From Zasmidium citrigriseum (Eukaryota; Ascomycota; Dothideomycetes; Mycosphaerellales; Mycosphaerellaceae): a stretch of 64,000 bases of DNA. A program made the translations under genes and the position numbers. Where the stretch lies: assembly GCA_002786025.1 (NCBI GenBank), contig NHNW01000054.1:124001-188000 (forward strand), given 5' to 3'. The notes beneath the pieces are model-generated. The model ran no database searches. It had not been told where the DNA came from and saw only the letters and a list, made by a program, of their open reading frames with translations. Below, piece by piece: positions 57,384 to 61,121 of this stretch; position 1 is the first letter of the stretch; every line of letters begins with the position of its first letter.

Positions 57384-57510
57384 GTGAGTATGACTCGTCC
57401 CCCGCTGCTGCACCTGCCCAGCCAGCCCGCTGCCGCTGCCGACCCTTCAAAATTTCCGCCGCAACCTCACCTCTTCCATCCCACTTGCTAACTCGCCTTT
57501 GTCCGCCCAG
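57384..57510 (+). other. probable 5' UTR intron of eRF1
   Basis: A good donor (GAG/GTGAGT) at 57384, branch TTGCTAACT and acceptor GTCCGCCCAG ending at 57510 bound a 127-nt segment just before the eRF1 start at 57541. It is seen in the sequence; splicing is inferred. Confidence 0.55.
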
Positions 57511-57540: not shown

Positions 57541-58848
57541 ATGTCGGCGCCCCAGGCCAACGACGCCGAGAAGAACATCGAGATATGGAAGGTCAAGAAG
57601 CTCATCAAGCGCCTCGAAGCCGCCCGCGGCAACGGCACCAGCATGATCAGCTTGATCATCCCGCCCAAGGACCAGGTCTCGCGCGCCGCGAAGATGTTGG
57701 CTGAAGAGTTCGGTACCGCCTCCAACATCAAGTCGCGTGTCAACCGCCTGTCCGTCCTGTCGGCCATCACCTCCACCCAGCAGCGATTGAAGCTGTACAG
57801 CAAGGTCCCGCCGAACGGCCTGGTCGTCTACTGTGGTGAAATCATCACCAGCGAGGGTAAAGAGAGGAAGATCAACATCGACTTTGAACCCTTCAAGCCG
57901 ATCAACACTTCGCTGTACCTCTGTGACAACAAGTTCCATACTGAGGCGCTTAGTGAGTTGCTCGAGTCGGATCAGAAGTTCGGCTTCATCATCATGGACG
58001 GTAACGGAGCTCTGTTCGGCACACTTTCTGGCAACACGAGAGATGTCCTGGCCAAGTTCAGCGTCGACTTACCCAAGAAGCACGGTCGTGGTGGTCAGTC
58101 TGCCCTGCGTTTCGCCCGTCTGCGAGAGGAGAAGCGCCACAACTACGTCCGAAAAGTTGCCGAGATGGCTGTTCAGAATTTCGTCACCAACGACAAGGTC
58201 AACGTGGCTGGTTTGATCCTGGCCGGAAGTGCCGACTTCAAGAACGATCTCAACCAGTCGGATTTGTTCGACCAGCGTCTCCAGGCCAAGGTCATTAAAG
58301 TTGTCGACGTCAGCTACGGTGGCGAGAACGGCTTCAACCAGGCCATTGAACTTGCAGCCGAGACTCTGTCCAACGTCAAGTTCATCCAAGAGAAGAAGCT
58401 GATCAATCAGTACTTCGACCACATCAGCCAGGACAGCGGAAAGGTCTGCTATGGTATTGAAGATACTCTCAAGGCTTTGGAAGCTGGTGCTGCTGAGACT
58501 TTGATCGTCTACGAGAATCTTGAGATGACCCGATGGCAGCTGAAGAGCAGCGAAGGCAGCGAAGTCATCTTGCACACGACAAAGGAGCAAGAACAGAATC
58601 GCGAGCTCTTCATGGACAAGGACACCGGCCAAGAGATGGAAATTATCGATTCCATGCCCTTCCTCGAGTGGCTGGCCGAGAAGTACCGCGATTTCGGCGC
58701 TACCTTGGAATTCGTTTCCGACCGGTCGTCCGAAGGCAACCAGTTCGTGCGCGGATTTGGTGGGATCGGCGCCATTCTCCGCTACAAGCTCAACTTTGAG
58801 CAGCTTAATGCCGATGATGACGACGAAGATGAGTTCTACGACGATTGA
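57541..58848 (+). CDS. SUP45: eukaryotic peptide chain release factor 1 (eRF1)
   Basis: Intronless in the coding part, 435 residues. Domain 1 has the stop-codon recognition NIKS motif (residues 62-65) and YLCDNKF (126-132). Domain 2 has the GGQ motif (184-186, in [11 protein letters not shown]) that triggers peptidyl-tRNA hydrolysis. Domain 3, which contacts eRF3, spans the last about 160 residues and ends with the usual acidic tail ([13 protein letters not shown]). The protein recognises all three stop codons in the ribosomal A site. The stop at 58846-58848 is TGA followed by CAA, and the frame stays open for 85 further codons up to a likely intron donor (see separate feature). A 5' UTR intron is likely. 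All expected residues are intact, so this is a functional housekeeping gene. Confidence 0.97.
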
Positions 58849-59187
58849 CAAATAGATGACCTCGCAGAGGGCGAGGCGCCACGCACGGAACGACCAGCAC
58901 CGGTATCTAATGGTGTCAAGGCGCCTCCCATGCAGCACGTCGAGGCGGCTGCAACTGCTACTGTCCCAGCAGTCAACGAGACAGGAGATGAAAAAGAAGC
59001 GGCGAAGGAGTCGAACGAGCCCAAGAAGAAGCCATTATCGTTCGCCAAGAAGGTCCTCGCCAAACAGAACTCAGTGACGACGATCGAACACAACCGACCA
59101 AAGGTAGGAAACATATAGACGTGATATGCAGTACATGAGCTGACAATGTAGATCTCTTCGCCATTGAAAGCAGGCATCACCGCCTGA
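58849..59187 (+). other. in-frame extension downstream of the eRF1 stop codon
   Basis: After the eRF1 TGA the same frame is open from CAA at 58849 through 85 codons to AAG at 59101-59103. A probable intron 59104-59151 follows (GTAGGA, GAGCTGACAATG, TGTAG), and 11 more codons lead to a TGA at 59185-59187. The peptide is Ala/Glu/Lys-rich and ends in a basic helix-like stretch (KKKPLSFAKKVLAKQ). Without splicing a stop comes at 59116. It might be a readthrough extension, a separate small ORF starting at Met (58930), or part of an alternative transcript. The 3' UTR intron alone would make the normal mRNA a possible nonsense-mediated decay target. Confidence 0.55.
59104..59151 (+). other. probable intron in eRF1 3' UTR
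   Basis: 48 nt with donor GTAGGA, branch AGCTGACA and acceptor AATGTAG, located 255 bases beyond the stop codon. Inferred from splice signals only. Confidence 0.55.
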
Positions 59188-59900
59188 GAACTGCCAGTGC
59201 GGGTGGAAGCGATGAGCGGCAAAATACTCGATCTGTACTGGAACGAGTAGGACTGATCGCGAAATCGTCCATTGCGCACAATAAGCAAAAGTAGTGATAC
59301 ACAGTATCACAAAACCGCATGCTTTCGGGATTTATGTTAGGTGCTTTGCGTTCAGTGGCTTCAAGGGATACGCTCCTTTAACAACATGCTTTGGTCGGTA
59401 TGCTGGAGTCGGAAACGGGATTCAGATTGGAAACATAGCTTGCTTCTTCAAATACAACACTGTCTCTACCTGCCGGCGAACCGTTGACCTGACTTGAACT
59501 CATGTGATGTTCGACACTTTCTTGGCGTTGGTTTGACCTCGGACGCCGAAAACGGCAGTCGCGGACTTCACTTGATGAAAACTTGGGACTTTGAATCATC
59601 TGACCATTGAACATCGCCGAGCACAGTACATGCATATCTCTCGCCCGACCGGCTGTTGACACGTGTTGGAGACTTCTTGTCCAGCGGAAACATTGTTGTG
59701 GTTCCTTTGTTGAATCGTCACCGACCTCTCTTCGGCGTTTCTCTGCAGCAGTCAATCCCGGCAACGGCCACGCGACATTGTACCTTGTTTGCTTGCAGCG
59801 ACAGCTCTGCACTCCTGAAGCTACCAAGCATGCGGTAGCACGAGAAATCAATTTAGTCTAGAAGTTCGCTTGCAACTTCGTACTGCCGCCATCAGTCATC
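59188..59900. other. intergenic region
   Basis: About 710 bases between the eRF1 3' region and prephenate dehydratase. No gene is supported. Confidence 0.45.
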
Positions 59901-61121
59901 ATGGGCGAGGATGAAAAGCCGGTGGTGGCTTTCTTGGGGCCGAAGGCATCTTATACACATCAGGTGAGTCTTTCACTGGACTCTTTTTGCTCTTCGGAAA
60001 ATTGGTGGACGAAAAGATCGTGAGGGAAAATGGCAAAAGAGCTTGGTCTTTCAGGGTCGGCGGAAATGGGAGGCATGGTTTGATGTTGCCATGGAGTCGT
60101 GGAGTCATTTTAGAAGCCCACATGCTAATCTGTGCTTCACCAGGCCACAGTCTCACAGTTTCCGGAGGCCAAGTTCGATGTGCAACCGCAGACGACAATC
60201 GAAGACGTCTTCTCCTCCGTCCAATCCCTTACCGCAGCGCACGGCATCGTCCCCTTCGAAAACTCCTCCAATGGCTCGGTGGTCTTCACCCTGGACCTCT
60301 TCGCCGACCTCCAAAACCGCTATCCCGACATCCTCGTCGAAGGAGAAATTTACTTACCTGTACGACACTGTCTCCTCGGGCACGCCCCGAAACCAGGCTC
60401 GCCGACGAAACGCACCGACCTCCCCTGGCGTCGCCTCGGTGCAGAGACTCCAGGAACCGTAACACCCACCCAGAAACACCCCGTCCCTGGAGCCCCGAAA
60501 ACAAAACCCTCCTCCGACATCAGCCATATCAAGAAATTATATTCTCACCCCCAAGCCTGGGGCCAATGCCACCTCTTCCTCAGCACCTACCTCAAAGGCA
60601 CCGAAAGACAAGACGTCTCCAGCACCTCCCGCGCCGCGGAACTCGTCGCACAGGACACCTCCGGGACCTCGGCGGCGATTTCGTCTAAGATAGCCGCGGA
60701 GATGAATGGCCTCGAAATTCTGGCAGAGGGGATAGAAGATAAAGAAGGGAATGCGACGAGGTTCTTCATCCTTCGACACTCTTCTTCCCCTTCACCGCTC
60801 CCACCTGCGCCGAGGGAGCCGGAGCCGCATCATCTTTACAAGACTTTAGTTTCGTTTACTGTCTCTCATGAGGAGCCTGGTGCGTTGGCGGATTCTCTGG
60901 CGGTGTTTAAGAAACATGGCTTGAATTTGACGAGTATTAATACGAGACCTAGTGGGGAGGCGGCGTGGCATTATGTGTTTTTTGTGGAGGTCAAGGGGAG
61001 GAAGTTGGGCGAAGGAGAGGGCGGCGCGGTGAATGAAGCGCTGAGGGAGTTGGGCGGGGTATGTCAGGGGTGGCGGTGGTTGGGGAGTTGGGAGAATCGG
61101 TTGGTTGGGGGTGGGAAATGA
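59901..61121 (+). CDS. PHA2: prephenate dehydratase
   Basis: Inferred CDS is join(59901..59963, 60144..61121), 346 residues. Exon 1 encodes the N-terminal nucleotide-sugar-like strand VAFLGPKASYTHQ; a 180-nt intron (GTGAGT, TGCTAATC, CACCAG; phase 0) joins it to ATVSQFPEAKF. The catalytic PDT domain spans about 8-235, with GIVPFENSSNGSV (prephenate binding) and the late TRFFIL motif (from NATRFFILRH) that carries the catalytic Thr-Arg-Phe. A C-terminal ACT domain follows (VSFTVSHEEPGALADSLAVF then NLTSINTRPS), which in this family mediates feedback inhibition by phenylalanine. The enzyme converts prephenate to phenylpyruvate in the cytosol. A Pro/Thr-rich insert at about 115-145 lengthens the fungal form. 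Confidence 0.93.

Follow-up and report, generated by a model that had tools for sequence, protein, structure and literature searches.

The gene analysed here encodes eRF1, the factor that decodes stop codons, and its sequence raises the question of whether the eRF1 mRNA itself ends in a stop codon that is sometimes read as sense. The coding frame closes with TGA-CAA, remains open behind this stop, crosses a predicted intron and reaches a second TGA. "The window" denotes the whole stretch of DNA that was analysed (64,000 nt).

The eRF1 gene, its stop codon and the frame behind it

The eRF1 coding sequence occupies positions 57541–58848 of the forward strand, including the TGA stop (58846–58848), is intronless and encodes 435 amino acids. 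All three domains (eRF1_1, eRF1_2 and eRF1_3) were matched in the ORF with Pfam, solved eRF1 structures were matched over residues 6–434 (PDB, E 6.7e-217), and the gene is the single eRF1 match in its own 44.4 Mb genome. The locus is thereby identified as the kind of gene on which an eRF1 readthrough/nonsense-mediated decay (NMD) circuit acts. A probable 5'UTR intron (57384–57510) lies just 5' of the start codon; its donor is GTGAGT, its branch site CTAAC and its acceptor, which was assigned by eye, CCCAG. Downstream, on the same strand, a prephenate dehydratase gene is found at 59901–61121, with Pfam matches to PDT and ACT on ORF 60132–61118 and a first exon assigned by eye from 59901. Models in which eRF1 and prephenate dehydratase are fused occur four times among the best 120 of 1409 relatives (P0002, P0064, P0081 and P0106); the order of the two genes is thus a recurrent one, and they are at times merged in annotation. 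Pattern matches in GTDB genomes (128) contained a single relative, the release factor of Candidatus Heimdallarchaeum endolithica (33% identity over residues 1–433 of the fungal eRF1), and those in IMG/VR (25) contained none.

The stop context TGA CAA ATA (58846–58854, forward strand) joins UGA-C to a hexamer of the form CAR-NBA and is, by its sequence, readthrough-prone as in an eRF1 circuit. Leakiness of UGA followed by C, as had been assumed in the initial annotation, agrees with the yeast reporters described in the excerpted part of PMC4446449. It had also been remarked there that CAA fits the tobamovirus-type signal CAR-YYA and that ATA breaks it; this is right, and CAA-ATA nonetheless fits the yeast consensus CAR-NBA. 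Hexamers of the types CAR-NBA and CAR-NNA placed 3' of the stop increase readthrough according to excerpts of PMC4446449 and PMC4973966, the latter of which states CAR-NBA for UAG, and CAA-AUA is not among the hexamers named for UGA reporters in the excerpts of the former. The stop context of SUP45 (yeast eRF1) serves as a control for efficient termination in the same excerpts of PMC4446449; a leaky eRF1 stop is therefore not general in fungi, and the feature is absent from budding yeast. The RNA 3' of the eRF1 stop gave nothing notable in structure (z −1.60 and −0.82; 15/200 and 41/200 shuffles folded equally well), and an Rfam search was without a match at the gathering score.

Behind the stop, the in-frame extension exon (58849–59103, forward strand) comprises 85 codons (QIDDLAEGE...HNRPK). 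It is followed on the same strand by a predicted 48-nt intron, GTAGGA...CTGACAATGTAG (59104–59151), with the elements GT...CTGAC...TAG, and then by the last 11 codons, ISSPLKAGITA, and the second stop (59152–59187; codons 59152–59184, TGA 59185–59187). Re-reading of the sequence and of its ORFs confirmed the whole arrangement as first annotated, from TGA-CAA and 85 open codons to the 48-nt intron and the TGA after 11 further codons. In such a circuit the 3'UTR intron is expected more than about 50 nt after the stop. Here the predicted intron, which belongs to the 3'UTR whenever translation ends at the first TGA, begins 255 nt past that TGA, is crossed by the in-frame extension and has a conserved donor place.

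Among 20000 first-order Markov sequences modelled on the composition of the extension, 2197 contained an open run of 85 codons, as did 714 of 20000 modelled on the 3' region, and 7419 of the 59478 overlapping null frame-windows of the 64,000-nt stretch were open over the same length. One antisense frame over the extension is open too (minus-strand ORF 58836–59288). Openness of 85 codons alone is thus weak evidence (4–11% by chance), and the length of the extension by itself is not significant. Per codon, the extension had a coding score of 0.16; eRF1 scored 0.22, and the other two forward frames scored −0.07 and −0.11. The extension's value was reached by 292 of the 59478 null frame-windows. 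When limited to synonymous codon choice, the score of the extension was flat (0.01), so that the high coding score comes from the amino-acid make-up. The first half of the extension scored weakly (0.07 vs. 0.25), and its GC3 (0.60) lies below that of eRF1 (0.76). From the window by itself the case would be open; the extension is clearly more than chance because its protein is conserved in relatives.

Conservation of the extension peptide

A protein search with the extension that included short ORFs gave nine candidates, with four proteins at E ≤ 10. Identity to the extension was 84% for P0122 (70% of the query, E 2.9e-23), 90% for P0123 (66% of the query), 76% for P0124 (43% of the query) and 57% for P0125 (71% of the query, E 2.1e-6), all of which are metagenome ORFs. 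Two blocks are invariant in the alignment of these four proteins with the extension (5/5 sequences): the core SFAKKVLA (59038–59061, forward strand), preceded in the window by K-P-L, and NRPK at the exon end (59092–59103, forward strand), which abuts the intron donor. In each of P0122–P0125, NRPK is directly followed by V, exactly at the donor. Since V is encoded by GTN, the spelling of an unspliced donor, the place of the donor of the 48-nt intron is conserved; three of the four proteins continue with VSY, VSY and VRL, residues compatible with a donor GTRAGT or GTRCGT. That the four tails were called as separate ORFs suggests a stop or an intron in front of them; the contig of P0122 measures 798 bases, and its ORF may be cut. 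Loss of the downstream frame in relatives had been named at the outset as the result that would speak against the proposal. The alignments instead show the extension to be conserved as protein in related fungi (57–90% identity), and likewise, as read from protein, the place of the intron donor. None of 394 candidates reached E ≤ 1 when the search with the extension alone was limited to full-length eRF1 lengths, and a search for a second copy in the fungus's own genome returned a match at chance level (E 0.71).

More distant tails were compared with shuffled sequences. The tail of the Meristemomyces eRF1 (P0002) scored 22.3 bits, against 10.7 for the best of 5800 shuffles, and 23.6 bits in a test of 23 tails, against 11.3 for the best of 6900 shuffles (0/6900 as good). 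The tail of P0005, a protein filed under Quercus suber and placed among fungi on the tree, was weaker (1/6900 as good). Borderline values against their own shuffles were obtained for P0091 (6/300), P0043 (9/300) and P0063 (15/300); P0007 (158/300) and P0096 (37/300) did not rise above chance, and P0088 was without a reported match. Only P0002 and P0005 thus stand out from the 23 tails, and the idea of a deep homology of the tail reaching further than these two was dropped. By eye, NRPK or NKPK can be found in P0002, P0005, P0007 and P0043, and SSPLK or TSPLR in P0005, P0007 and P0043. P0007 (Saxophila) and P0043 (Extremus) share NKPK^VTSPLR with NRPK^ISSPLK of the window, which gives the common join K^[IV][ST]SPL[KR]; in P0005 the join follows NRPK and a stretch resembling an unspliced intron, after which VSSPLK is read. 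The likeness of the tails of P0007, P0043, P0088 and others rests on shared positions (NKPK^VTSPLR and LAE[GS]E) that were chosen by eye.

Stop and putative intron at the eRF1 end in relatives

When the query joined the extension to the last part of eRF1, 1409 proteins among 1887 candidates were obtained, and the tails of the best 120 of these 1409 relatives were read, 119 of which could be parsed (P0003, which lacks the anchor, was left out). Fifty of the 119 end in YDD-stop like the window, 41 read YDG, 2 read YSG and 26 have other ends. In all 42 of the 43 YDG/YSG tails that continue, the codons of the next residue can begin with A or G; the tails comprise 37 distinct sequences and are hence not all independent. 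This residue fits a GTR donor throughout, and many relatives therefore seem to carry an intron just ahead of the stop, whose donor would interrupt the last codon after its first base. Tails of P0052, P0053 and P0104 contain QID, which back-translates to CAG|ATTGAY, and the spliced end in these relatives would be GAY G^AT TGA Y, as deduced from the proteins. Transferred to the window (58843–58867, forward strand), the putative intron end of the relatives corresponds to GAC G^AT TGA, as judged from the back-translated tails and a donor scan, and CTCGCAG (58861–58867) aligns with the join YD^EGEAP of P0002. P0002 is one of six GenBank models among the best 120 of 1409 relatives (with P0007, P0021, P0022, P0088 and P0108) in which YD is joined to [EGV]-[GS]-E; the [GS]-E stretch aligns just past the window's stop, near CTCGCAG. 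These joins may be real alternative acceptors or the gene caller's bypass of the stop.

The eRF1 gene of the window is without the upstream intron of these relatives. On a tree of 65 of the proteins it lies closest to P0010 (97/89 support), a protein of a metagenome contig that also ends in YDD-stop; to read this end as absence of the intron presumes a gene caller that is blind to introns. In the donor scan of the window, no donor was found at the stop site. The initial annotation had offered an acceptor at the stop, used in a minor transcript, as its alternative. The tails indicate that in many relatives an intron ends there, but no credible donor accompanies it here, and UGA readthrough appears as the only evident route to the long form in the window's lineage.

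Two further observations concern individual tails. The eRF1 proteins of two Terfezia species (P0050 and P0084) share the same 416 residues as far as NFEQL. Beyond these, the annotation of one gives YDGRHIF..., which looks like an unspliced intron, and that of the other YDD; the tail of P0050 may be an annotation error. In the place of YDD-stop-Q of the window, two metagenome proteins (P0075 and P0091) have YDDWQ, and both run into long tails; the W is either TGG, the stop having been lost, or TGA read as W under the gene caller's code.

The proposed readthrough/NMD circuit and its alternatives

We consider it probable that the eRF1 mRNA carries a leaky UGA followed by a conserved, spliced extension, and that the two form a feedback of readthrough and NMD. 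Ribosomes would sometimes read UGA-CAA-AUA as sense. With plentiful eRF1, termination at the UGA would leave the 59104–59151 junction downstream, and the mRNA would be removed by NMD; with scarce eRF1, readthrough across the junction to the second stop would let the mRNA escape NMD, and eRF1 would rise. Readthrough, decay and dose response are proposed here by homology with the circuits of Neurospora crassa and plants. UPF1, UPF3 and Mago domains were found above the cut-off in the genome, so that the NMD and exon junction complex (EJC) factors called for by such a circuit are represented by these three. In Neurospora, mRNAs with spliced 3'UTR introns are degraded through EJC-dependent NMD, according to the published account as far as excerpted, and the role of 3'UTR introns as NMD triggers that had been cited from this organism is thereby upheld. 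A self-regulating loop, in which low eRF1 permits readthrough, had been suggested from the outset: its components stood up, in that tail and donor are conserved, the stop context fits and the NMD/EJC genes are present, whereas the loop itself is something we infer.

The long form could also be made by alternative splicing, an intron end near the stop being joined to a distal acceptor with excision of the stop. The 43 YDG/YSG tails among 119, with their GTR-compatible next residues, and the six YD-[GS]-E joins speak for such splicing in relatives, though all six may be artefacts of gene prediction. Within 400 nt the window offers just two in-phase GTs, GTGCTG and the poor GTGGGA, and splicing from GTGGGA would cost domain 3 its conserved end. 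A strong in-phase GTGAGT lies at 57953, 903 nt off, and would require an intron of that length, deleting most of eRF1. The sister P0010 likewise ends in YDD-stop, and splicing seems to us decidedly unlikely here. Loss of the relatives' upstream intron, and of the splicing route with it, would equally suit an extension that is the decaying relic of an ancestral long form, its stop now always terminating, and the flat synonymous codon score points the same way. Against a relic stand 85 open codons, intact splice sites, 84% and 90% identity with two metagenome ORFs and invariant blocks that persist at 57% identity, and we regard it as unlikely.

A 62-codon ORF begins at the internal ATG at 58930, from which a separate small protein might be made through reinitiation or an own promoter; in relatives the tail was called as short ORFs of its own, and the coding signal is weak in the extension's first half. 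The Met at 58930 is, however, T in P0122 and V in P0125, P0124 begins further in, and the GenBank models P0002 and P0005 fuse the tail to eRF1, which makes this origin highly improbable. With no credible donor that removes the stop and an internal start that is not conserved, UGA readthrough is the likeliest route. Readthrough might serve a functional long isoform solely, with NMD uninvolved, and the conservation of the peptide does exceed what a bypass of NMD needs; the conserved donor of the 3'UTR intron and the precedents in Neurospora and plants argue against this, and we think it rather unlikely.

Within the preferred reading of a readthrough/NMD feedback, the tail may have a role of its own. 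Bypass of NMD needs just an open frame, and the invariance of SFAKKVLA and NRPK at 57–90% identity suggests that the tail peptide itself matters. Tentatively, and with somewhat less than even confidence, we propose that long eRF1 is a functional isoform rather than a mere consequence of escape from NMD, with a docking peptide maintained by selection among these fungi. Two routes to the tail would replace one another between lineages: tandem acceptors around the stop where the upstream intron was kept, and UGA readthrough where it was lost. The fungus would then possess a release factor specific to low eRF1. The candidate docking peptide in this tentative proposal is K-[PG]-[LV]-SFAKKVLA, which is reminiscent of a PP1 RVxF site. 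K-P-L-S-F in the window and K-G-V-S-F in P0125 are candidate matches to the PP1-docking RVxF motif; the RVxF-like motif is absent from the Meristemomyces tail.

An eRF1 readthrough/NMD circuit is not new. Kurilla et al. 2020 (FEBS Lett 594:3504; cited via PMC10578600) claim in their title an autoregulation of the N. crassa eRF1 by readthrough and 3'UTR-intron NMD, and the idea that the fungal circuit was unreported was dropped on account of this title. The N. crassa erf1 circuit concerns, as in the window, the same gene of a filamentous ascomycete with readthrough and a 3'UTR intron; the likeness is drawn from the title. The plant circuit (Nyiko et al. 2017), described in the excerpts of PMC11062462 and PMC9293766, bears out the statement in the initial annotation that eRF1 autoregulation is established in plants. 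It resembles the window in readthrough of the eRF1 stop and in a 3'UTR intron distant from that stop, and differs in being a plant system, presumably of independent origin. In an excerpted plant Ribo-seq study, no footprints were found in the proven eRF1-1 readthrough case. Peroxisomal isoforms of fungal PGK and GAPDH arise through readthrough or alternative splicing (Freitag 2012; PMC3798809 and PMC4973966, in excerpt), and as apparently with the eRF1 tail, a mosaic of splicing and readthrough between lineages leads to the same C-terminal tail. Those tails carry a PTS1, whereas the eRF1 extension, in the gene for a termination factor, ends in ISSPLKAGITA without an SKL-like C-terminal PTS1; the UGA CU context given for peroxisomal readthrough isoforms in the excerpts of PMC4207609 is likewise not found at the eRF1 stop, which reads UGA CAA. 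Neither the conserved tail peptide nor the apparent intron/stop exchange was met with in the literature searched, the full text of Kurilla et al. 2020 excepted, and these two features may be new.

The locus would carry the eRF1 readthrough/NMD feedback reported for Neurospora into a further lineage of filamentous ascomycetes, where its anatomy is visible and the protein sequence conserved. The apparent exchange of intron and stop offers a natural comparison of the two ways, splicing and readthrough, in which the same protein end can be reached. If the tail is functional, a stop codon that gauges the factor by which it is read would also give rise to a separate product, made only while this factor is scarce, and if long eRF1 is indeed an isoform with a docking peptide, a release factor specific to low eRF1 would report on termination or tune it.
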